A stretch of DNA of 64,000 nucleotides from Alphaproteobacteria bacterium (GTDB taxonomy: Bacteria; Planctomycetota; Phycisphaerae; UBA1845): NCBI GenBank assembly GCA_028285105.1, contig JANQQE010000030.1:124001-188000 (forward strand), given 5' to 3'. The position numbers and the translations under genes were made by a program. Positions 31,161-45,564 of this stretch are shown here, in pieces. The notes beneath the pieces were generated by a model. The model was not told the DNA's origin, ran no database searches, and saw only the letters and a program-made list of their open reading frames with translations. Numbering within the stretch: the first letter of the stretch is position 1; each line of letters begins with the position of its first letter.

Positions 31161-32375
31161 TCAAGACATATTGGGAGCGGACGCAAGACGGTCAGACCAT
31201 GCGTAGAGGATCCAGCCCATGTGGTACGGTCTGGTTTCATAGTCTATGTACGTCGGGGGAAAGATCGTGTTCGCTGCCGGGACCCGAAGCGATGGATGCA
31301 CTTTGCTGGCTGTCGCTTGTAAACCGCGGACCAGCTTTCCGGGTTCGCGACGGGCAACTTTGCGCCAAATCAAATCGGCATCCTTATCGAACAGCGAGCC
31401 GTCGATTTCGGGTGAATTCTCAAGCCATCGCAGCCCACGCGCAATCGCATCGGCATGACACACACCCGCAGCTTTGCGCAATGCCAGAAGCGCCATCGGT
31501 GCCATCGAATCCTGGTGTACCGAATATACCGGATACGCTTCGATGCATTGGCCATTGCGGACATCGTGATGCCACCACCATTGCCCCAAAGCACCCTGCC
31601 CATCGCACATCCGTTGTGCGCAGCGGGTGGCTGCTGCCAATGCATCCGAATCGCCATCGTATTGATGATAAAACGACAGCGCCTGAATCGGATATACCAA
31701 ATCGGCAAAGCACGCAACATGGCTTCGCATTGAAGATGCATTCCCGTCAAACGGAATGTGCGAGAACAGCGACGTTTCATCGTTGAACGATCGAAGCAGA
31801 CGATCGGTAATCAGCCTCGCAAGATCGTCATCGCGCGCGACCTCGCGTTCATCTGCGACCAGAGCAGACAGCGACCAGGCGATTTCAACCGTCGGCGCGT
31901 CGCACGCTTGCGGCTTGACGCGGCGCAACACCTCAAGCGCCTTGGGCGCATCGGGATGATTCATCGCCCGTGCCGCCCACAACGTCAGCGCAACTTCGCC
32001 CAGTTCGGATTGTTCGCACAAGCCTGCAATCAGCGAAGCGCAAAGGTCACTGGAATCTTGACCGTGCAGCACCTCACGCGCCAGCGAATCGGGATGTTCA
32101 GCCAAACCGATCAGCACCGTGGCTGCGTAGCGTACGCTGGTCCCTTCGGTCCGATCACCCTGTTCGCCCCGACGAATGCAGTGACAAAAAGTCCGCGTTG
32201 CGGGATCGTACATCCGCACGAGGGCGCGAACCGCAACCGCACATAGCTCGCTTGATTGCTGGCTGATGTAAGAATCCAACTTGCCTACCGCCAAATCGCC
32301 TGCCGCCAACTCGGTCGATGCCAAATGGGTTAATTGCTGTGTGGCTGTCTTCATCCAGATGTCATCGTCAACCAC
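31161..32375 (-). CDS. Alpha/alpha-toroid protein of unknown function in the exopolysaccharide operon
   Basis: The start is GTG at 32375, overlapping the Wza stop by eight bases, or ATG at 32354 (397 residues). The 404-residue protein is a run of paired helices (LCAVAVRALVRMY, LALRKAAGVCHADAIARGL) like the toroids of prenyltransferases, terpene cyclases and some polysaccharide lyases or epimerases. A Trp/His-rich segment, QWWWHHDVRNGQCIEAYP followed by YSVHQDSMAPMALLAL, is the likely active or binding site. No signal peptide is seen. It may modify the lipid-linked sugar or bind the polymer. I do not recognise the exact family. Confidence 0.75.
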   Translation of the reverse strand: MVDDDIWMKTATQQLTHLASTELAAGDLAVGKLDSYISQQSSELCAVAVRALVRMYDPATRTFCHCIRRGEQGDRTEGTSVRYAATVLIGLAEHPDSLAREVLHGQDSSDLCASLIAGLCEQSELGEVALTLWAARAMNHPDAPKALEVLRRVKPQACDAPTVEIAWSLSALVADEREVARDDDLARLITDRLLRSFNDETSLFSHIPFDGNASSMRSHVACFADLVYPIQALSFYHQYDGDSDALAAATRCAQRMCDGQGALGQWWWHHDVRNGQCIEAYPVYSVHQDSMAPMALLALRKAAGVCHADAIARGLRWLENSPEIDGSLFDKDADLIWRKVARREPGKLVRGLQATASKVHPSLRVPAANTIFPPTYIDYETRPYHMGWILYAWSDRLASAPNMS

Positions 32376-33603
32376 CGGTCTGACTTTGAATCAGGTTGAT
32401 GCCGCTGTTGCGATTCAGGAACCCGAATGGATCAAACTGATCCTGCAAGTTTCCGCCGCCAACGCCACCTCCCTGCGCGCCATGCCGGTTCATGAACTCA
32501 ATACCCGAGACATTATAGCTCACAGATGCGTTGAGTCCTGCACGAATGAAGATGTTCTTGTTGATCCAATCCTGAACGCGGGTCTCGAATGTTTCCGGAA
32601 CCCAGAGAATATCGCCGGCTGCCAGCATCAGATTGGGGTCTGCGCCAGTCGCCAGCCGATTGAGATCGATCTTGACGTGTACGTCCTCACCATCGGGAAG
32701 GCGCCGAATCAAGGTTGCCATCTTGGGGGCGACATCGGTTCGCAAACCGCCAGCGGCTGCGATCGCCTGCAAGCTGTTGATCGTCGCACCTGGCGGATAG
32801 ATTTGCGTTTGTGGAGAACGCACAAGCCCACCCACGAAGATCGCATTCACCTTTGCGGATTCAACGGTAATGATATCACCATCTTCCAACGGATCGAGCG
32901 AAAGCGCTTGCGCCAATCCCTCGCGCGTCGCAATGTTGAGCGTGACCTCGTCATCCGGACAACGCAGTCGCGAAAGCGTGACCTGCGCTGCCGAAATGTC
33001 CGACAAACCGCCAGCCGCATGAATGGCGTACAGTAGGTTGCGTTCGGTTCGACGCAGTTTGGTCAGACCCGGTTTGGTCACTGCACCATGCACGAGAACA
33101 TTCGTCGGGGCTGCCTGTCGGAGTCCAACGAACACACTGACATCTTCCGCATTCTTGAAGAACCCCGGTACGAAGGCAGCTGTGATTGCGTCTTCGACTT
33201 CTTCCAACTCTTTACCGTTGACCTGGACGTCACCGACCAGCGGCAGGTCGATCGATCCATTGCGATCGACGCGAACGAGGGTCGGAACATTCGAATCGCT
33301 CTCGGTATTGATGTCGGCTTTCATGCTGATTTCCAGAACGTCACCGGGACCAACCGTGTATCGACCGAGCTTTGAATTGAGGTGGGCCGTCGCCACAATT
33401 CCATCGTCAGCCGGCGCGCTTTGGGCGAACTCTTCCTGAATCTGAAGGAACTCGTCCATCCCGATGCGATGATCCTTTTGACTGCAACCGACCAGCATGA
33501 TGAGCGGTGCAACCCAAAGACCCACATACGTGATGCTCAAGCTTGTTGTGATGCCCACTTTTGTATTGACTGAGCGACGGTTCATATTCTGACATGCTGA
33601 CAT
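32368..33603 (-). CDS. wza: Wza-type polysaccharide export lipoprotein
   Basis: This 411-residue protein has a lipoprotein signal ending at Cys40 (PLIMLVGC). The poly-export domain begins LGRYTVGPGDVLEISMKADI and continues RNGSIDLPLVGDVQVNGK, followed by SLBB-type soluble domains (FVGLRQAAPTNVLVHGAV; FVGGLVRSPQTQIYPPG). Wza forms the outer-membrane channel for export of capsule or exopolysaccharide. Start ATG at 33603 has GGGAG ten bases upstream; an ATG six codons later is possible. The gene is followed by the toroid gene with an eight-base overlap. Confidence 0.9.
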   Translation of the reverse strand: MSACQNMNRRSVNTKVGITTSLSITYVGLWVAPLIMLVGCSQKDHRIGMDEFLQIQEEFAQSAPADDGIVATAHLNSKLGRYTVGPGDVLEISMKADINTESDSNVPTLVRVDRNGSIDLPLVGDVQVNGKELEEVEDAITAAFVPGFFKNAEDVSVFVGLRQAAPTNVLVHGAVTKPGLTKLRRTERNLLYAIHAAGGLSDISAAQVTLSRLRCPDDEVTLNIATREGLAQALSLDPLEDGDIITVESAKVNAIFVGGLVRSPQTQIYPPGATINSLQAIAAAGGLRTDVAPKMATLIRRLPDGEDVHVKIDLNRLATGADPNLMLAAGDILWVPETFETRVQDWINKNIFIRAGLNASVSYNVSGIEFMNRHGAQGGGVGGGNLQDQFDPFGFLNRNSGINLIQSQTGG

Positions 33604-33836: not shown

Positions 33837-35612
33837 TTATCCCAACTGTGCAGTTGACTGACTTTGAACGCCGTCCCTGGTGTGGTGATGCGAACGCACG
33901 ATCCACGAAAGCGGGACGCTCCAACGCCCTCCCAGTGTCAGCACCGTGGCTGCGAAGATCTTGACGTCAAGCCAGAGTGAAAACCGCTTCACGTAAATGG
34001 TGTCGTAGAAAATCCATTCGTGGAAATCGCCCTCGCTGCGATCGTTGCTTCGACAAACCTGCCAAAGTCCGGTAATCCCCGGATTCACCGAGAGTCGCGC
34101 CCGACGCCAAGGCACGCAAACCTGGTTCTCGCGGAACGGAGAAGGCCGCGGTCCGATCATGCTCATGTGTCCCAAGAGCACGTTGATGAATTGCGGTATC
34201 TCGTCGAGGTTCGACGCACGAAGAAATGCACCGAACCGCGTCACCCTGGGATCGTGATCCATCTTGAACTGCGGGCCGTCCACTTCGCTTTGGGCGTAGA
34301 GTTCCTTTTGCAATGCGTGGGCATCCTTGCGCATCGTGCGGAACTTGATGCACGGAAACACCTTACCGCCCTTGCCTTCGCGATTGTGCATAAAAAACAA
34401 CGGCCCTCGCGAATCGATTTTGATGATCGCCGCCACGATCAAGAGCAACGGTGCAAACAGTATCAGTACACTTATCGCTGCGACGATGTCGATGACACGT
34501 TTGATGCGCATCTGAACTTTTTTCTGATAACCCGGAAGCGCTTCGAGCTTTGGTCCTTCCATCCCGGTGATTGAATCGTACGGATCGAAATCGAGCGGCG
34601 CGAAACCGTTGCCGTTGGTTCCGTGACTCGTTAACGCAGCATGGGGCTGCACACCGTGATTTTGGCCACCCGACGACACCTGGTGACGCACCGTATCGTC
34701 GCAGTCTACCATGGCATCGCGCGCCAACACCGATTGGGCGACGACTGAATTTCGTCCGATGCGACAACCCGGACCGATGATCGTCGGACCGATGATCGAC
34801 GCATTCTCTTCGACAATCACATCGTCGTGAATCACCACCGGACCGACGATGCGCACGCTGCCGTCGATCCAGCAATCGGACCCGACCAGAACGTGTCGCC
34901 CTTTTTTCGAGTACCGACGGTGGTGCGCCCGACGAAATGCAGACGGCATCAGGTGTTCCGCCAGTTCCAATACGTCGTCCTGTTCATTCAGATCAACCAG
35001 GTCGGTGGGCAGCGGTTGATCCTGTTGCAGCACACCCGAATCGCCCAACTGTCGGCGAAGTTCCGACAGTGAATCGAAAGCCACGTGCGTGAGGTCGCCG
35101 GCAGAAGCCAATGACATCACCAGGCGTTTGTTGGCAACGTGTGGCCAGGATGTTCCTTGAAACAACCGTTTGACGCGGCGGACATTTCCCCTGGCGTCTC
35201 GGACAATGCGTTCGCGAGCACGATCGGTTCCATCGCCAACTGCAACGACGTGCGTGGCTCCGAGATACCCGCGATCGCCAACGATGGCGGCAGTCTTGCT
35301 GAATCCGCAAGTGGGACACGTGCCCGCATCGACGACGATAACCATTTCCTCGGGGTCGGATTCGCCCAAGACGTCGGTCAGTCCGGCAGGATCGACAACC
35401 TTTACGGTCGTGCCAGCCAACGAGGCAAGACTCTTTTCGTAGCCTTCTGACGGTTCGAATGCCGGAGCGACCCAGATGTCGCCCCCGCCTCCAACCGACG
35501 AGATGATGTAATCGATGTAGCTGCGCGATCCGAGCGGGAGCATCAAGAGCGACGTGGTACCGTACCCTTCGCCAAGGTATTCAGGACGTCGATCAATAAT
35601 GAGAAGTGCCAT
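33837..35612 (-). CDS. Initiating phosphoglycosyltransferase fused to degenerate nucleotidyltransferase and hexapeptide helix
   Basis: This 591-residue protein has three parts. Residues 1-250 have the fold pattern of an NDP-sugar pyrophosphorylase, but the GG-x-GTR loop and signature Lys are replaced (LLIIDRRPEYLGEG...TTSLLMLPLGSR). Residues about 250-310 form a left-handed helix of hexapeptide repeats (VGPVVIHDDVIVEENASIIG). Residues about 370-575 are a monotopic sugar transferase of the PglC/WbaP type: re-entrant helix (KRVIDIVAAISVLILFAPLL), KFRTM, catalytic Asp-Glu in NLDEIPQFINVLLG, and MSMIGPRP. It loads the first sugar phosphate onto undecaprenyl phosphate. The N-terminal part is paralogous to the separate protein at 38329-39456 and is more likely regulatory or substrate-binding than catalytic. 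Confidence 0.88.
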   Translation of the reverse strand: MALLIIDRRPEYLGEGYGTTSLLMLPLGSRSYIDYIISSVGGGGDIWVAPAFEPSEGYEKSLASLAGTTVKVVDPAGLTDVLGESDPEEMVIVVDAGTCPTCGFSKTAAIVGDRGYLGATHVVAVGDGTDRARERIVRDARGNVRRVKRLFQGTSWPHVANKRLVMSLASAGDLTHVAFDSLSELRRQLGDSGVLQQDQPLPTDLVDLNEQDDVLELAEHLMPSAFRRAHHRRYSKKGRHVLVGSDCWIDGSVRIVGPVVIHDDVIVEENASIIGPTIIGPGCRIGRNSVVAQSVLARDAMVDCDDTVRHQVSSGGQNHGVQPHAALTSHGTNGNGFAPLDFDPYDSITGMEGPKLEALPGYQKKVQMRIKRVIDIVAAISVLILFAPLLLIVAAIIKIDSRGPLFFMHNREGKGGKVFPCIKFRTMRKDAHALQKELYAQSEVDGPQFKMDHDPRVTRFGAFLRASNLDEIPQFINVLLGHMSMIGPRPSPFRENQVCVPWRRARLSVNPGITGLWQVCRSNDRSEGDFHEWIFYDTIYVKRFSLWLDVKIFAATVLTLGGRWSVPLSWIVRSHHHTRDGVQSQSTAQLG

Positions 35613-35670: not shown

Positions 35671-38004
35671 CTACACCGAATTCTCGAGGCGGTATGGATT
35701 ACGCCGGCTGTTCGACTCGGAGTCGTATGTCGAGTACGAAGAATAGCTCGTTCCCGTGGGGGCATCGACAAGCACCGTACCGAGAAGTTTACCGCCAGCC
35801 GCACTGAGATCGGCGTACGTCTGAACAACATCGGCGCGACGCGAATGGGATGATCGCAATACCATCAATGTACCGTCGGCTTGGTTGGCGAGGATGCGAG
35901 CGTCAGCCACCGGAAGCACGGGGGGACCGTCCATCAAGACGATGTCATATTTTTTCTTCCAACGGTCGATGCACGCCGAAAACACACCGTTCGCCAGAAT
36001 GTCGTGGTTGAAATTCTGCGGCGGTTCCCCCACGAGCAGAATGTCAAAACCGTTCACGCCAGTCGGCAAAATCGCTTCCTTGTCGGTGACTGCCCCTTGC
36101 AAAAGCGTCGGCAGACCGAACAACGGTTTGATATTCAAGTGTTGCGAAAGAGAGGGCCGATACAGATCGGCTTCGACCAGGAGTACCTTCTTGCCGAGTT
36201 TCGCCAGGCTCTTGGCGAGCAGGATCGACAGCACACTCTTGCCCGTCTGCATGGTCGAACTGGTGACCAGCACACAGCGTTCGCCACCTTTTCCGATGCG
36301 CTCCATCAGCGCCGTGCGCACCATACGCACATGCTGCGTCAACACCGGCGGAAGCTCACCGTAAAGATTGCAGCGCCTGGGAAGTGGCGGGAGTTGCCCC
36401 AAAAATGGCACACGACTGTTTTCGTCGACGTCGCGGGCTTCGCGAATTTTCGAGTCGGTAATGACCCGCAAGTAGGCTGCACCCATTCCGCAAATCATGG
36501 CACCAAAAAATGCCATCGCGCACATCACCGGGCGCCGGTCCTTGTTGGCCTGCTTCGGTTCAATGCCGTATGAAGCGACCGAAATGCGTCCGGGGGCTTT
36601 GTCTTCGAACTCCAGTCCTTGCAGTCGAGTTTTCACGCGTCCATACAGGTCTCGTTTGTCCTTCAATCGCTGCTGCAAGCCTGCAACGGTTTTCGCGTAT
36701 TCGCCTTTTTCAAGCTGCTCGGCGCGGACACTCTTGAGCTGTTCGTCAATCAATTCAAGTTCACGCTGCTTATTCGGCACGACATATTGCAATTCTGCAA
36801 GCGTTCGCGGGCCGTCGTCGTCTCTGTCCTTCGACGCCACCGACTGCACACCGCTGTCGAGTTCCTTCTGACGGGTCAGGAGCAAGCTTTCGAGGTGTCC
36901 GACTTCTGCATCCAGTACTCTGATCTTCGGATGGGCGCTCCCAAATTGCTGATTGGCCATCGTCAATTCGTGGCGCTTGTTCTTGAGTTGCAAATTCAGA
37001 CGTTTCCAATCGTCGTCGCTCGAATAACGAAAGACGCTGACATCGGTTTGCGTTTCGTGCGTTTGCGCTGATGCTTTGCTGGCTTCAAGCGCGGCAAGTT
37101 CTTCAGCCAACAGCGTATGCTTGCGGGCCAGTTTCTCGCGATCGGTCTCCAGCGTGGTAAGGCGCTTGGCCAACTGTGCCCGGGCGATATCCGGGTCGCT
37201 GGTCCCGATCAATTTTGAAAACTCGCCAATTTCTTCGACCAGTTCTGCGATTTCTTTTTGAAGGTTGACCTCTTCGTCACGCAGCGTGTCATAGACCAAC
37301 TGCTCGCCTTCTTCGGTGTGTTCTTCGGTGTATTTGACGTACTCGTCGACGATCGCGTCAACCAGCACTTTGGTGTCGCTTCCGTCATTGGTCGTGACCA
37401 TGACGTCGATCAGCTCAGTGTTGCGACGCGGCCCCGCTTCGACAGAATCCTTGAGTCGTTCCATGTGGCTGGGCGGTTCGCCCCCAAGCATGGTGCGGAC
37501 GGTCCGGGGTGCATTGTTGTACCAATCGGTGGCCTGCACATCGTCTCGCTTGAGTACTGACGACAAGACAGCCGACCCACGTACAATGGAAACCTGCGTG
37601 TTCAGAAACTGCCAATAGTACGGAACCATTCCGGTTTTTTCGGGTACGTCGAAGATGATGGGCGAAATCACCGGTCGAACTCGAAGCGAGGCCAGCGCTT
37701 CGTACTTCGGCGAAACCAGTGTCCAGATCGCGGGGATCGAACTTCCAGCAATGACAAGAAACACCGACAACATCAGCCACTTGTAACGCAGCAAATGAAA
37801 CAGCGAGAATCCGCCAGCCATCGGTTCGCGCGGTCCCACGCCCGTCGGACCGAATGAATCCATCAACAGATCGTCGCCCTGGTATGCCTGTGCAATTTCC
37901 GACGGCCTTGCAGGTTCGACCACCGCAGGCAGCGTCGGGCGACCAAGATCCGGTCTGCTCGAATCCGCATTGCCAATGTCCAAGTTGTCGCGATCCTTGC
38001 CCAT
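35671..38004 (-). CDS. wzc: Wzc-like polysaccharide co-polymerase / tyrosine autokinase
   Basis: This 777-residue protein has an N-terminal Wzz-type membrane segment (YKWLMLSVFLVIAGSSIPAI, about 74-93), a long periplasmic coiled coil (about 210-430), a second membrane segment (MCAMAFFGAMICGMGAAYL, about 500-518) and a cytoplasmic BY-kinase domain. The kinase has Walker A SSTMQTGKSVLS (about 583-592), Walker A' in LLVEADLYRPS and Walker B in IVLMDGPPVLPVADA. The tail is rich in Tyr (YSSYSTYD), the autophosphorylation cluster. The Walker A lacks the usual first Gly and the A' motif has Glu for its first Asp. It controls polymer length and couples Wzy to Wza. Confidence 0.9.
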   Translation of the reverse strand: MGKDRDNLDIGNADSSRPDLGRPTLPAVVEPARPSEIAQAYQGDDLLMDSFGPTGVGPREPMAGGFSLFHLLRYKWLMLSVFLVIAGSSIPAIWTLVSPKYEALASLRVRPVISPIIFDVPEKTGMVPYYWQFLNTQVSIVRGSAVLSSVLKRDDVQATDWYNNAPRTVRTMLGGEPPSHMERLKDSVEAGPRRNTELIDVMVTTNDGSDTKVLVDAIVDEYVKYTEEHTEEGEQLVYDTLRDEEVNLQKEIAELVEEIGEFSKLIGTSDPDIARAQLAKRLTTLETDREKLARKHTLLAEELAALEASKASAQTHETQTDVSVFRYSSDDDWKRLNLQLKNKRHELTMANQQFGSAHPKIRVLDAEVGHLESLLLTRQKELDSGVQSVASKDRDDDGPRTLAELQYVVPNKQRELELIDEQLKSVRAEQLEKGEYAKTVAGLQQRLKDKRDLYGRVKTRLQGLEFEDKAPGRISVASYGIEPKQANKDRRPVMCAMAFFGAMICGMGAAYLRVITDSKIREARDVDENSRVPFLGQLPPLPRRCNLYGELPPVLTQHVRMVRTALMERIGKGGERCVLVTSSTMQTGKSVLSILLAKSLAKLGKKVLLVEADLYRPSLSQHLNIKPLFGLPTLLQGAVTDKEAILPTGVNGFDILLVGEPPQNFNHDILANGVFSACIDRWKKKYDIVLMDGPPVLPVADARILANQADGTLMVLRSSHSRRADVVQTYADLSAAGGKLLGTVLVDAPTGTSYSSYSTYDSESNSRRNPYRLENSV

Positions 38005-38328: not shown

Positions 38329-39456
38329 TTATCGGCGGCGATTACCAAACCACCCCAAAATTCCGCCGCGATTTTTTGAATTCAACTTGCAAATCGTCCG
38401 TCGATAGACCTCGTGGTTGTTCGCGCGGGCACCATTCGAGACGATGCTGTCGTCCACAATCGCGCCATCACCGACCATACCCCGATCCCAAATCGCCGAA
38501 CGTGTGACCACCGCGTTTGCTGCCACTTCGCAACCCGCACCAACTGACACCGGTCCGACGATCATTGCACCCTGGCCAATCAGCGCCCCAGGGCCCACCC
38601 AGATCGGACCGATGAGTTTCGCCGAATCATCGACTTGCGCCGAGCGATGTATCCAAGCATCGCCATGACGAACGTGCCCTTCAAATTCGCCTTTGTACTT
38701 CGAGAGTTTCTGCACCGCCCAACTGTTGACCGTCAGATACGAGGCCAAACACTTGATTCGCGGCGCAACATCAGTCGGGACGGGCAGTACCGAAACCGAC
38801 TCGCCTCGTTTGTAAAGGTCGGAGATCAAACCCTCTTTGATATCACAAAATCCATGCCCTGAAACATACGAAAGGGACTTGCGGCTGAAAACGTAAATAC
38901 CAAGCAACTCTTCATCTTCGAGTCGCTGATCCGGCGAAAATTCATTGCCGTGAACGACCATCGTCATCGACGCCCCGCTTGTGCGGTGATGATCCAATAG
39001 CACACCAAGATCGACTTGCGGAACAACGCCACCTTCGACCACGACGAACAATTCTTCGTCACCCTTCTTCGCTGCGTCATGCGCACACCCAGCCGGTCCG
39101 CGCGGCATCAGGTCTTCGGTGTAGTCGATCGAAATGTTCAGCCCTTCGCCATTTCGCAAATGATGCGAAAAGAGCGCGGTGTTACCGTTCGCACAAACCG
39201 TTGCGCGTCCGACACCATCGTTACCGAACCAACTGAGGATGTGACAGATGAGCGGGCGCGTCGCCACCGGAAGCATCGGTCGGGGCATGATCTGTTCCAA
39301 TTCGCAATCACCATACGAAGGACCGCCAGCCAGCACGATTCCGCGTATGGTGGTTGACTGGGCGGGTTGATCTGCCCGATTCGAATTCAGATCGTTCGCA
39401 ACGGAATTACCCGCTATCGATTCACCCAATCCCCGGATGGTTGAATTAAATTCCAC
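38329..39456 (-). CDS. Sugar-nucleotidyltransferase-like protein with hexapeptide helix
   Basis: This 375-residue protein starts at GTG 39456, which has a strong GGAGGTGA ribosome-binding site and overlaps the previous stop by 11 bases. The N-terminal half is a nucleotidyltransferase fold: GIVLAGG is kept, but the GTR residues are absent, and the signature PKPMLPV reads PRPMLPV, with Arg for the catalytic Lys. The C-terminal third is a left-handed helix (IGPIWVGPGALIGQGAMIVG). True pyrophosphorylases make NDP-sugars for the pathway; the altered residues make catalysis doubtful. It is a paralogue of the N-terminal part of the fused phosphoglycosyltransferase. Confidence 0.82.
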   Translation of the reverse strand: MEFNSTIRGLGESIAGNSVANDLNSNRADQPAQSTTIRGIVLAGGPSYGDCELEQIMPRPMLPVATRPLICHILSWFGNDGVGRATVCANGNTALFSHHLRNGEGLNISIDYTEDLMPRGPAGCAHDAAKKGDEELFVVVEGGVVPQVDLGVLLDHHRTSGASMTMVVHGNEFSPDQRLEDEELLGIYVFSRKSLSYVSGHGFCDIKEGLISDLYKRGESVSVLPVPTDVAPRIKCLASYLTVNSWAVQKLSKYKGEFEGHVRHGDAWIHRSAQVDDSAKLIGPIWVGPGALIGQGAMIVGPVSVGAGCEVAANAVVTRSAIWDRGMVGDGAIVDDSIVSNGARANNHEVYRRTICKLNSKNRGGILGWFGNRRR

Positions 39457-41575
39457 GGTGCGTCACCTCCCTGAATCCCAAACCACCGATACCGGGATTT
39501 CCAAATTCGGAACTGCCCTGTGGAGGAAGTGACTGCTGGGGCACCGGAGTGGCAGAGACATCTGCCTTGACGGGACTACGGTGCATGGATATGCGTGTCA
39601 CCAGGGTTGTGCTACCCGTCCATCGAAGTTTCCCCACGATGGTTGGGCAGGGGACTTTTTTATGATATCCTCGGCTGACCCAGCCGAAAATGGGGTTTTC
39701 CTGACCGCGATGGGCTTTGACTTCCAGACGCGGATCCAGCGCCAATTGAACCGTGCCAAACGGCGCTCTAATGATAGCCACGTTTTCGCGGATTTCTTCC
39801 ACTTTGCAAAATTCCGAGAAATGGAAGCAAATTTCACCATCATGCTCAGACTTACCGGTCAATTCATCGTTGATCGTCAATTCGGAACGTGAACCCTCGA
39901 GTTCGACCGTCCGCCGGTGCTTGACCGGGTCTTTCAGTCGATCATAACCCGTGTGCTCGCCGGAAACCTTCCCGCCATATTCCGTTGGCCGCCAATCCAG
40001 GCACTTCGATTCGGCTCGCTCACCCCAAAGGAACAACCCGAGCAACTGCGATTGATCCTCGCCATCGACGGTCACGGTGTTGTGGGCGCGGGTGCTTTTG
40101 AAATAGTCTCGCCACTTGCGGTGGGTGAAGTAGTCGTAGGTCCCGGGATCGACCAGTACGTCGTGACCGAATGCCCGCAGCGTCAGCGACAAAGCATCGG
40201 CATGTCCGTGAGCGGCGATACTGCCCATGCCCAATTCGGCGCAGTCGAATACGGCACTGATTCGATTATCGCCGGACTGCGAATTCTGCGAACCGCTTTG
40301 AAGCAAGTAATACCCAGTGTCGGTAAATGCCTTCGACTCCAGTTTGATTGTTGAATCTTGCGCACTGGATTCCGCTGACGACGGTTCGGCGTTCAACTGC
40401 CAACCGGCGCGTTCGTTTCGATTGCCCGCGAGGGCTGTAAAATCGATTCGATTGAACATGTCGCCAGCAACCGACAGCAATGCCCGCACCTGATCCGATC
40501 GATCGCCGAGGTCGAGTACATATCCATCGTCGTAATCGCCATACAGCGGAAGGTTACCGCCACCTTCGACGAACGCAGCAACGTAGTCGAACATACGCTC
40601 GATGTGTTGCCAATACACATTCGAGAATTCGTCACCAACGCTGCGTCCCACCTGTCCTGCTAGCATAAAGAACTCAAGCACGAATGTGTGGTAACCAAGC
40701 GCTTGTTCTTTGTTGCCGCCATCGGGATGTGTTTGATTGGCGATCTCTTCTTCGAGAATTTGTTTCGCCCGTGATGCCCAGCGATTCGACTCAGAGAATC
40801 TGTTGAAGTATCGCGCCGCGATGTACGCGCCAGCCGCCTCGCCAATCAAATGATTGTTCGCCGACGAATAGCGCGAATAGCTGCGGTCCAGACACCACAT
40901 GTGTCGATGGATCGTGGGAACCAACGATTGCCAACGCTCCTGCGTCAACAAACCGGACGACTTGATCAACTCAAACGCCCAGACCCAGTTGATGATGCGG
41001 ACGCCAAACTCCAGCGGACTCCGCCAGTTCATTCCGGTCGGGAACGGGCACTGTGCCAACCAACTGTCGATCTGATCCAACACAGCGGCTGCATACTTGA
41101 CGTCGCCCGAAACGGCATACGCCCGTGCCAGCACTACCAGATGCTGATGGCGGTTGGGCTCCCAGACAAGCTTGCAGTCGCCAGCCACCTCAAAATCGCG
41201 GTAATCGATCCGTGAAGCCTTGGTCCTGGGTGAATGCTTCTTGGCCGAGTAATCGTAATTCCAGTTAATCTCGGTGCCTGAGTCTAGGTCTTCCAGGTCA
41301 AAGAACGCCAACCGACCCGCCAGCAGACGGTCGGCTTGTTCGATTAAGTTCGCTTTTTGATCGTCACGAAGCGTCGGGGCCAACGGGATCGCCGAAAATG
41401 CATTTGCCGTTTCGAATGACGCATCGCCGACGAGGTAGGCAAACGTTCTGCGCGATTCGCGTATCGGCGCACAGACGCCATCGACGCTCCGCCGAACGAT
41501 GCCACACGACCGCCACCAAATTTCAGCTGGTGACATCGATCGTAAACGGCGCCAATACCAGTCTAAAGTCTGCAA
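39446..41575 (-). CDS. Heparinase II/III-like polysaccharide lyase family protein
   Basis: This 709-residue protein starts at TTG 41575 with AGGGGA five bases upstream. It has an N-terminal alpha/alpha toroid (NNHLIGEAAGAYIAARYF at about 240-257) and a C-terminal beta-sandwich with the family core AHGHADALSLTLRAFGHDV, then DPGTYDY and RAHNTVTVDG at about 455-515. The His and Tyr positions of the lyase active site are present. No signal peptide is evident. Homologues recur in exopolysaccharide operons of the PEP-CTERM-associated type, where they may edit, epimerise or release polymer. It is the first gene of the operon. Confidence 0.87.
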   Translation of the reverse strand: MQTLDWYWRRLRSMSPAEIWWRSCGIVRRSVDGVCAPIRESRRTFAYLVGDASFETANAFSAIPLAPTLRDDQKANLIEQADRLLAGRLAFFDLEDLDSGTEINWNYDYSAKKHSPRTKASRIDYRDFEVAGDCKLVWEPNRHQHLVVLARAYAVSGDVKYAAAVLDQIDSWLAQCPFPTGMNWRSPLEFGVRIINWVWAFELIKSSGLLTQERWQSLVPTIHRHMWCLDRSYSRYSSANNHLIGEAAGAYIAARYFNRFSESNRWASRAKQILEEEIANQTHPDGGNKEQALGYHTFVLEFFMLAGQVGRSVGDEFSNVYWQHIERMFDYVAAFVEGGGNLPLYGDYDDGYVLDLGDRSDQVRALLSVAGDMFNRIDFTALAGNRNERAGWQLNAEPSSAESSAQDSTIKLESKAFTDTGYYLLQSGSQNSQSGDNRISAVFDCAELGMGSIAAHGHADALSLTLRAFGHDVLVDPGTYDYFTHRKWRDYFKSTRAHNTVTVDGEDQSQLLGLFLWGERAESKCLDWRPTEYGGKVSGEHTGYDRLKDPVKHRRTVELEGSRSELTINDELTGKSEHDGEICFHFSEFCKVEEIRENVAIIRAPFGTVQLALDPRLEVKAHRGQENPIFGWVSRGYHKKVPCPTIVGKLRWTGSTTLVTRISMHRSPVKADVSATPVPQQSLPPQGSSEFGNPGIGGLGFREVTHRGI

Positions 41576-42826: not shown

Positions 42827-44329
42827 TTAATAACTGGCAACGGAAGCACGGACAGGCGGCTTTTGGTTCTGTCGGACAACCGTTGCGCTATTTGGCATTC
42901 GTTGCTTGGACTGCGACTCGAGGTGAACCGTCATCAACGCATCGTTTTCGAGCAGGCGAAAAACTTCGTGCGGAAGAACCGGGGCAATGTTGGCCGAGGC
43001 CATCAACGTTTTGGTCGCTACCCGCTTCACAGGCGAATTGGTCTGCATGGCATTCAGCGCGACGCGAACGTCTTCAACGAGCGCCAACTGGTTCCTCAAA
43101 TCTTCCAGTTCATTCTGATGGGCTTCGACCGCAGCACGCAGTCCGACGCGTCCGGGATTCGTTTCGACCGATTGGGCAAAGAGCAGTTCGGCACGTTGGA
43201 GCGCCGTTTCGGTCACGCGGATTTCGGCATCAATCGCGCGGGCTTGATCTCTTGCCGTCGCGTCACCGCCACCGGGCACGAATAATTCTTCCCGCATCGC
43301 CAACGCAAGAACATGGAGACGAAGTTCCCGCAGTTGCTGCGACACCCGGCGAAATTCACTCTTCGCACTTCGCAAACTCTTTTCGTTCTTGAGAAAACCT
43401 TCGTGACTTTTGAACACGATGGCCTTGAGTTTCTTGCGCCCTTCAAGTCGAGCGATTTCGTCGCGGATGCTGGCGCGCAATTGAACGGTGTCGTCAATCA
43501 ACTGATCCAACGACTGCTTCTTCCAGGTAATTTCGTCCTGATTGGCTAGCAGCAACAATCGACAAACCGGATCGGAGTTGCGTGCATGGTTGACGTCCGA
43601 TGCCAGGAACGCAGCCATCGTTGCCGGCGTACCTACGGCTCTTTCGGGTTCAAAAATGTCGATGGAGTCTTGACTGCTGCGACGCTGTTCAAAATCACCG
43701 CGTGGATCGTGACGACTTGCGTCATCGTTGACCATCGAAAGAAGTTGCCCGTCGTATTTGTCCAGGGCAGCCAGTTGCGATTGCAACGAAGACAGCAAGC
43801 CTGAGTCGTATCGATCGCTCTTGCGTTGAAGCTCGAATTCATAGGCCAGCCGCCGCCGCTGGTCTGGCACTTGGGAACGCCATTTCTCCAACATCTGCCA
43901 GAGTTCGTCGTCTGGGTGGTGAACCCGAAGCGTACCATTCAAGTTGTCGTTGGCTTTGACAAATCGACATAGAAATGCGTAATCGCCCGGGGCCAATGAC
44001 AGGTCCAACCCCCGCACTTCCTGCCTTGGAAACGAATCGCCCCACAGCACGATGCTGGTCGAGTCGGTTGATAGCGGCGTCAGGTCTTCGACGAATCCAT
44101 CCCCGGATTGCGGTTCGTTACCGAAATGTTCATCCGATGATTGACCGTCATACACCGCCCTATCTGAGGCCAGCCTCTCGCCTGTAGACGGACTTGTTCT
44201 CGACGCCAGTTCCGAATGAGAACTGGGTGGGCTGAAGCACACCTTCACGCTCGTGCTTTTCTGCTGGCATCCGATCAGCCCAATACCGGACACGCCCAAA
44301 GCGATGGCACACGGAATCCGCGCTTTCAT
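42827..44329 (-). CDS. Coiled-coil lipoprotein of unknown function
   Basis: This 500-residue protein is taken from ATG 44329, preceded by GGAGGAGAG and followed by a clean lipoprotein signal ending at Cys21 (GVSGIGLIGC). The middle and C-terminal parts are rich in heptad-like helices (EIRVTETALQRAELLFAQSV; VEAHQNELEDLRNQLALVE), pointing to a long coiled coil. The N-terminal third is less regular. The architecture recalls periplasmic adaptor or outer-membrane-efflux helical proteins, but no family motif is seen. It lies upstream of the exopolysaccharide operon on the same strand, separated by a strong hairpin, so it is probably a separate unit. Confidence 0.75.
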   Translation of the reverse strand: MKARIPCAIALGVSGIGLIGCQQKSTSVKVCFSPPSSHSELASRTSPSTGERLASDRAVYDGQSSDEHFGNEPQSGDGFVEDLTPLSTDSTSIVLWGDSFPRQEVRGLDLSLAPGDYAFLCRFVKANDNLNGTLRVHHPDDELWQMLEKWRSQVPDQRRRLAYEFELQRKSDRYDSGLLSSLQSQLAALDKYDGQLLSMVNDDASRHDPRGDFEQRRSSQDSIDIFEPERAVGTPATMAAFLASDVNHARNSDPVCRLLLLANQDEITWKKQSLDQLIDDTVQLRASIRDEIARLEGRKKLKAIVFKSHEGFLKNEKSLRSAKSEFRRVSQQLRELRLHVLALAMREELFVPGGGDATARDQARAIDAEIRVTETALQRAELLFAQSVETNPGRVGLRAAVEAHQNELEDLRNQLALVEDVRVALNAMQTNSPVKRVATKTLMASANIAPVLPHEVFRLLENDALMTVHLESQSKQRMPNSATVVRQNQKPPVRASVASY

Positions 44330-45564
44330 GTTTACTCTCTCCTCCATAATTCTGTTCTTGTTTCGATTGAAACGACTGCTTGCTCTGCGATGAATCGCCA
44401 AAAGAGTTTTGCGGGCGATTGGAAATCAGAGTTCCCCCCGTTCGACATGATTGAACTATCCCATTCGTCTCGCCGTTGTGCCAATGGCCAGCCTACTTAA
44501 ATTGCGTAACATGTAACGATTTTACTGTTTATGATGCCTGCAACAGGAGAATCGGGATGGAGCAATTGGGCCATTAGCGTCATTGGATGCGCTAGAATCT
44601 GTCGGCATATCCGCAGGAAGATTTGCACATCGGCGGATTTGTTAAAGTCGCACACCAATTCACAATGGCGGAGCCTTAATCGATCGGAAGCGCCACTGAA
44701 ACAAGTTTGCAATAGGGGCTAGGCGCAGTCCCATAAGGTTCGCTACAATCATGAAGCGGAAAGTTAGGGAATCTGCCGCGATCGGGTTACATATGGACAC
44801 CCGCATTGCATGATCCCAGTTTGTCAGCACCGCATAGGGGAGACTACGAGAGACACAGCCGGAGCCGGATGTGTTTCCGAGAAGCATCAAGAATCATATC
44901 CAACTCCTGCCAGGAGTTTGTTCAGTTGCGCTGTGCGAATTGTGTTCGATGTCCAATTGCCAGACCTGGCTGCTGTCGCAACTTTATTTGAAGTCGGTTG
45001 ATCTAGTCTGGTTGGCTTAGACGCAATACGCCGCTCAAGAAACGGCGTACATGAAATTGTGCGTTGCAAAAAGAACAATCTGCGGTTTCGTCGAGCGTAC
45101 TGAATCGGGTCAAGTATGCGACGGGCATCAGAGAAATTGCAAGCTTGCCAATGATTGCAAACGCATGTCTTGGCGAGGGCGTCACTTGATCGTTCAGCTT
45201 ATTCGTTCCATGTTGCGTTGGCAGCATGATTGAACAGTTGCGTTGGCAGCATGATTGAACAGGATCAATTATTAAATAGGGTGGATTATCCAGTCTAAAG
45301 TCAAGTAATGAACATGAAGCAATGAATTTCGTTGTCGCAACTGAAAGCAATGAGAACATTCGTGATGACATTGTTTAGCAATAGGACAGCGTTTGGTAAT
45401 AGGACAACGATGGCGCAAAGCAATTTTGAATTCAGGAACCATGAAATCAACTTGAACAACAAACCATTAATTTGATGAATCATTTATTTGGAATTCAGGT
45501 GGGCTTAGAGTCGCAATTATTCGGCTTGAGTCCTTCACAAGAGGTAATTCGAAAGGGGATGGCT
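44330..45564. other. 1.2-kb divergent intergenic region, no convincing gene
   Basis: This gap lies between the coiled-coil lipoprotein (minus) and the 1437-residue protein (plus). It looks more AT-rich than its surroundings. It contains a seven-pair hairpin (TACGCCG at 45027-45033 with CGGCGTA at 45043-45049), a 25-base tandem duplication at 45213-45262, and a near-repeat ATAGGACA(G/A)CG. Short frames on both strands lack coding character. Promoters of both flanking genes should be here. Confidence 0.45.
45213..45262. repeat. Perfect 25-base tandem duplication
   Basis: The unit TTGCGTTGGCAGCATGATTG followed by AACAG occurs twice in direct succession, at 45213-45237 and 45238-45262. It is in the non-coding region upstream of the 1437-residue protein. 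It could be a doubled operator or a replication slip. Confidence 0.9.

Follow-up and report, generated by a model that had tools for sequence, protein, structure and literature searches.

A phosphoglycosyltransferase with a pyrophosphorylase-like front end, and a paralogue of that front end, in an exopolysaccharide locus of a Phycisphaerae bacterium

Results

The locus and its genes

The window, i.e., the whole stretch of 64,000 nucleotides analysed here, carries an exopolysaccharide (EPS) gene cluster of a Phycisphaerae bacterium. The genes with which this work is concerned all lie on the minus strand:

38329..39456, minus strand: P0002 (375 aa), stand-alone pseudo-pyrophosphorylase with LbH (left-handed beta-helix of hexapeptide repeats), a paralogue of the P0001 N-terminus and its proposed partner
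35671..38004, minus strand: Wzc-type chain-length/tyrosine autokinase gene, located between P0002 and P0001 in most relatives
33837..35612, minus strand: P0001 (591 aa, ATG start), predicted initiating monotopic phosphoglycosyltransferase (PGT) with a pseudo-pyrophosphorylase and LbH front end
32368..33603, minus strand: Wza-type polysaccharide export gene, next downstream of P0001
30329..31240, minus strand: WecG/TagA/CpsF glycosyltransferase of the same EPS cluster (Pfam)

P0002 is located two genes upstream of P0001 in the same operon. In close relatives the genes are arranged in the order of HepII, P0002, Wzc, P0001, Wza, w404, and WecG; the order from HepII to Wza is conserved in three loci (L004-L006) and conserved in part in three others (L007-L009), and the arrangement P0002-Wzc-P0001 is a recurrent one in Phycisphaerae. 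Such conservation also fits plain co-regulation. The WecG-type transferase downstream of P0001 may, judging by its family, hint at a HexNAc-type start.

Several neighbouring genes were also recorded. HepII is a heparinase II/III-like protein (polysaccharide lyase; window 39446-41575, minus strand) whose end overlaps the P0002 start and which precedes P0002 in many loci of the stand-alone type. The conserved 404-aa gene w404 (window 31161-32375, minus strand) lies between Wza and WecG and gave weak DUF6288 and oxidosqualene-cyclase-like matches with no clear Pfam family; its counterpart directly follows the PGT where Wza was undetected (L124, L128). A 524-aa protein (window 42827-44401, minus strand) with a sub-threshold Vps51-like match is conserved beside the EPS operon in L004-L006. 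An ORF consisting of cysteine-rich repeats (such as CDDGDLCTTLDACTNGVC) was seen near an NTP_transferase gene in L089, a locus of the same genome as the window and located just before it (C35:117201-120818).

Domain layout of P0001 and its PGT core

The following features were assigned within P0001:

34917..35612, minus strand: residues 1-232 (approximate), pyrophosphorylase-like domain without catalytic motifs (BLAST, profile-profile comparison, AlphaFold model)
34677..34907, minus strand: LbH, residues about 236-312, approximately four coils (Pfam and model)
34527..34676, minus strand: variable linker of about 50 residues, 313-362 (orthologue comparison)
33888..34526, minus strand: PGT catalytic domain (PF02397), residues 363-575, with a hydrophobic re-entrant helix near 371-400
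34332..34346, minus strand: KFRTM motif, residues 423-427
34200..34205, minus strand: Asp470-Glu471 catalytic dyad
34143..34154, minus strand: GPRP motif, residues 487-490

The Bac_transf domain (PF02397) was matched by Pfam at residues 371-559 with an E value of 9.7e-60, covering positions 1-176 of 179, and NCBIfam recognised an exopolysaccharide polyprenyl glycosylphosphotransferase core with a score below the cut-offs of the full-length families. The Asp-Glu, KFRTM, and GPRP motifs that the sequence-only reading had described in a PglC/WbaP-like C-terminus were all present and did not vary among seven orthologues; among related PGTs the dyad was found in 69/71, a KFRTM-like motif in 69/71, and GPRP in 71/71. 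By its motifs, the region of residues 371-559 is apparently an intact monotopic PGT. In large PGTs, the core is preceded by a transmembrane (TM) bundle and a PF13727 domain (PMC10942596). Pfam gave no PF13727 match in P0001 at E <= 1 and no TM bundle lies ahead of the core, the peak mean hydropathy of residues 1-340 being 1.15 vs 3.03 in the PGT. On the basis of motifs and Pfam assignment, P0001 is a predicted monotopic PGT that falls outside the large (WbaP-type) class.

The hexapeptide helix that had been read into the fusion was recovered by Pfam as Hexapep/LbH repeats at about residues 245-311 (E = 2.6e-9). No invariant His was found in this helix among seven orthologues, and an active LbH acyltransferase was ruled out because the catalytic His is not conserved in them.

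The front end of P0001 resembles an NDP-sugar pyrophosphorylase devoid of catalytic motifs

No NTP_transferase (PF00483) match was found by Pfam in residues 1-235 of P0001 at E <= 1. BLAST aligned residues 24-321 with P0002 (E = 5e-10), and profile-profile comparison (HHalign) of the P0001 N-terminal family with the P0002 family gave a probability of 98.5% over residues 24-311, pyrophosphorylase-like part and LbH together, and 94% for the pyrophosphorylase-like part alone after removal of the LbH. Control profiles of Wzc, PGT, exosortase, and Wza gave 0.1-0.4% when compared with a larger pooled set of the P0001 pyrophosphorylase-like part, which itself gave 92% against the P0002 family. Against intact pyrophosphorylases (three sequences only, from the fetched loci) the probability was 3.5%; there is thus no direct profile match, and the kinship of P0001 to these enzymes runs via P0002.

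An AlphaFold model of residues 1-314 (13-sequence alignment) reached a pLDDT of 74.5 and a pTM of 0.76. A superposition of the kind that had been proposed as a check gave the expected fold: the model aligned with GDP-mannose pyrophosphorylases over its whole length (VIA-align Z 19.5, 279 residues, rmsd 4.3 A), a result not fully independent of the P0002 homology because P0002-type rows were included in the model alignment. Foldseek placed VTC1 and GMPPA at the top; the best fold matches were GMPPA, GMPPB, and VTC1 (VIA-align Z about 19), and eIF2B epsilon was likewise similar. The LbH is the best-modelled portion of the front end (pLDDT about 90-96 at residues 241-310), and much of the stretch of residues 113-161 is below 50. 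A full-length model built from seven orthologues had a mean pLDDT of 43.5 and was set aside.

The loss of GG-x-GTR and of the signature Lys, noticed before in P0001, was borne out in P0001 and its orthologues, which also lack the GD aspartate and the EKP lysine; GxGTR is absent from all 58 related PGT N-termini (0/58). Residues 1 to about 232 look like a catalytically dead NDP-sugar pyrophosphorylase fold, as judged from motifs and model. The sequence-only reading had described a pyrophosphorylase-like N-terminus of about 350 residues: its fold is supported by model and profiles and its extent is not, since about 232 residues of this fold are followed by the LbH and the linker.

Conserved residues and selection

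Two codons encode signature residues of the pyrophosphorylase-like part:

35211..35213, minus strand: Glu134 codon of P0001 (Glu in 59/59 PGT-fused N-termini)
35166..35168, minus strand: Arg149 codon of P0001 (Arg in 56/59 PGT-fused N-termini), at the canonical EKP position by hand alignment

Tyr occupies position 151 in 51/59 of the same N-termini, and the three positions sit on a two-strand hairpin in the model, within the poorly modelled stretch. The conserved features of the front end are the Glu/Arg pair and the LbH. Mean conservation was 0.40 for residues 8-20 (the loop standing in for GGxGTR), which is low for this domain, as against 0.71 for residues 21-28 and 0.56 for residues 133-152. 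Between the window gene and close relatives, dN/dS was 0.07-0.15 in the pyrophosphorylase-like part, 0.04-0.11 in the LbH, and 0.05-0.08 in the PGT, rough figures because dS is near saturation. The P0001 N-terminus is maintained by purifying selection; a decaying remnant is ruled out by the low (if rough) dN/dS, the invariant Glu134, and the near-invariant Arg149.

In other families of the class (L080, L081, L082), PGTs of 469-607 aa have a shorter N-terminus, which contains LbH remnants and the motif YRE[RV]...ER.Y. This sequence motif is suggestive of a wider Planctomycetota PGT front end.

The paralogue P0002

Pfam assigns P0002 as NTP_transferase (E = 1.8e-7) plus LbH. The sequence-only reading had overlooked this gene, the recurrent gene order, and the fusions described below. 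Its motifs are degenerate: GGPSYG replaces GGxGTR, Arg replaces the Lys, and EGG replaces GD. The P0002 family, without GxGTR, retains GxAG (both Gly in 74/74) and D[IL]KE (Asp205 in 73/74, Lys207 in 71/74, Glu208 in 72/74). The pyrophosphorylase part of the family matched intact pyrophosphorylases with a profile probability of 99.3%, and the family profile matched UGP, GMPP, and eIF2B epsilon chains in PDB. Since more of the canonical pocket is kept (GxAG and D[IL]KE), P0002 appears a better candidate sensor than the P0001 front end, and nucleotide sensing, if any, may belong to it.

Distribution and fusions in relatives

Other genomes carrying the same fusion, a search for which had been recommended, were found; a genome-contig scan covered close relatives, a wider survey was made within the class, and 59 PGT-fused N-termini were compared. 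By profile detection, some relatives have only LbH remnants, or no match, ahead of the PGT. A profile of the P0002 family had matches at E <= 1e-8 in 316/397 sampled genomes of the class, a threshold that probably admitted ordinary pyrophosphorylases too; its strongest matches were mostly proteins of one of two lengths, about 330-480 aa or about 630-740 aa. Full-length P0002 counterparts (n=73) comprise 44 exosortase fusions, 23 stand-alone copies (one of which, L085, is an intact pyrophosphorylase), and six direct PGT fusions, tallies that should not be read as frequencies because the neighbourhoods were taken from the strongest profile matches. The exosortase Cys, Arg, and His are intact in all 44 fusions, and Pfam independently found the exosortase in 5/5 fused copies submitted. 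A P0002-type dead pyrophosphorylase-LbH followed by a complete exosortase (PF09721) is seen, for example, in L068:6919-8904, L069:3436-5334, L071:6905-8806, and L078:2577-4532, and in about 40 more loci.

With tally profiles for exosortase, PGT, and Wzc that were built from members of the same locus set, a second gene encoding a PGT in the fetched piece lay on the same strand and had more than 150 aa before its core in 21/21 stand-alone loci and 37/37 exosortase-fusion loci, contig ends being partly responsible for missing second genes. Wzc was located between the P0002 counterpart and the PGT in 16 stand-alone loci and 36 exosortase-fusion loci. In L080 and L082 the P0002-like gene, the exosortase, and the PGT are separate neighbours, in L082 also with Wzc.

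The genome of the window encodes two other PGTs, in neither of which a match to the P0001 front end was found, and holds further NTP_transferase genes. The sole exosortase found in it is encoded on a different contig, where further Wza and Wzc genes are its neighbours; the window locus is thus without exosortase and exosortase coupling cannot be general.

Discussion

The loss of catalytic motifs, purifying selection, and an arrangement conserved across the class support a non-catalytic pyrophosphorylase front on an initiating PGT, and that part of the sequence-only reading has held up well. Together, the P0001 N-terminus and P0002 are, by motifs and model, a GMPPA-like case, i.e., a predicted non-catalytic pyrophosphorylase plus LbH with a paralogue of the same architecture. 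GMPPA, itself dead, binds GDP-mannose and allosterically inhibits its paralogue GMPPB (PMC11228364), and in the GMPPA/GMPPB complex the LbH is the main or sole contact (PMC9168903). By analogy, we consider it somewhat probable that the P0001 front end is a non-catalytic docking or allosteric module pairing with P0002. P0001 would initiate synthesis in an exopolysaccharide locus of the Wzx/Wzy type, its PGT transferring sugar-1-phosphate from a UDP-sugar to polyprenyl phosphate, and the dead pyrophosphorylase with its four-coil LbH would occupy the place of the TM bundle and nucleotide-sensing domain of typical large PGTs. The front end would play the part that non-catalytic subunits have in LbH pyrophosphorylase complexes (GMPPA/GMPPB, eIF2B gamma/epsilon). 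Its LbH would pair with that of P0002, in which a ligand pocket may be present, and the two proteins together would dock and gate the PGT inside the EPS machinery. The contact between the two proteins, its allosteric effect, any ligand, and the identity of the transferred sugar are what we infer. The pair looks regulatory or docking rather than catalytic because the P0002 copy is often fused to an exosortase in relatives, and both the gene order and the fusions are at least as indicative of assembly between proteins as of nucleotide binding.

It is unlikely, in our judgement, that the P0001 front end senses a nucleotide or nucleotide sugar on its own, switching the attached PGT when UDP-sugar or UMP is bound, as proposed for the WbaP DUF. 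The pyrophosphorylase fold would suit such a role, and nucleotide sensing by a PGT accessory domain has a precedent in WbaP: uridine nucleotides stabilise its accessory domain, which is unrelated to that of P0001, and WbaP is inhibited by UMP (apparent IC50 4.1 uM; PMC10942596). However, the nucleotide-binding loop of P0001 is lost and its replacement is poorly conserved even in relatives, which disfavours sensing by the front end; the metal-site and lysine motifs are also absent, and more of the pocket is kept in P0002. Still less probable is a purely structural role, in which the dead domain and LbH serve solely to hold the PGT in a homo-dimer or trimer and replace the TM bundle of large PGTs with no partner and no ligand. 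The absence of a TM helix in residues 1-340, the well-modelled LbH, and the relatives with LbH remnants only, or no match, before the PGT are in keeping with it, but it leaves unexplained both the conserved nearby paralogue and the invariant Glu/Arg pair. Substrate channelling, in which UDP-sugar would still be made or passed on by the front end for the fused PGT, is highly improbable: monotopic PGTs fused to functional domains do form a recognised class (Bi-PGT, PMC10942596), but GxGTR is missing from all the related PGT N-termini, GD and EKP are lost in the orthologues, and other NTP_transferase genes are present in the same genome.

The preferred reading, a docking or allosteric pair of P0001 and P0002, may be compared with known systems. 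Like Salmonella WbaP, P0001 has a C-terminal monotopic PGT core and a presumed regulatory N-terminal accessory region, which in WbaP is a four-helix TM bundle plus the PF13727 DUF and in P0001 a pseudo-pyrophosphorylase plus LbH. Bi-PGTs such as Neisseria PglB with its LbH acetyltransferase also join a PGT to another sugar-metabolism domain, whereas the fused domain of P0001 is N-terminal and without catalytic motifs, and its LbH of about four coils has no invariant His. GMPPA and the plant KJC proteins share the dead or regulatory pyrophosphorylase-LbH subunit and its paralogous partner; GMPPA, however, regulates a pyrophosphorylase, while here a PGT (or exosortase) is attached and neither of the pyrophosphorylase-like partners looks active. 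A pyrophosphorylase-LbH pair is likewise reused as an assembly and allosteric scaffold in eIF2B gamma/epsilon, part of a eukaryotic translation factor with no membrane enzyme attached. The EPS loci of exosortases (EpsH/Xrt) have a PF02397 sugar transferase, Wzc, and Wza, and relatives carry an exosortase fused to the P0002-type domain, whereas the window locus has no exosortase. A dead pyrophosphorylase-LbH front on a PGT with a nearby dead paralogue, exosortase-fused in relatives, was not found in an incomplete literature search, so that earlier notice is possible, and no paper on an exosortase-pyrophosphorylase fusion was found within partial literature coverage.

The co-occurrence of exosortase and EPS synthesis has long been noticed (PMC1569441). 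A bolder proposal, which we put forward tentatively and hold to be rather doubtful, is that the two paralogous dead pyrophosphorylase-LbH modules hetero-oligomerise and, around Wzc, connect the PGT with the exosortase, which sorts surface proteins; the start of glycan synthesis and the sorting of proteins would then be co-located and jointly gated, and the window would represent the version without exosortase in the locus.

PGTs draw on a scarce lipid carrier, and the regulation of the first, committed step of polysaccharide assembly is a largely open question in the field. The partner fusions in relatives make the gating or docking idea directly testable. Should a dead pyrophosphorylase-LbH pair indeed gate or dock the PGT, bacteria would have an equivalent of the GMPPA/GMPPB logic that acts on a membrane enzyme, and this would hint at a physical connection of exosortase with EPS synthesis.
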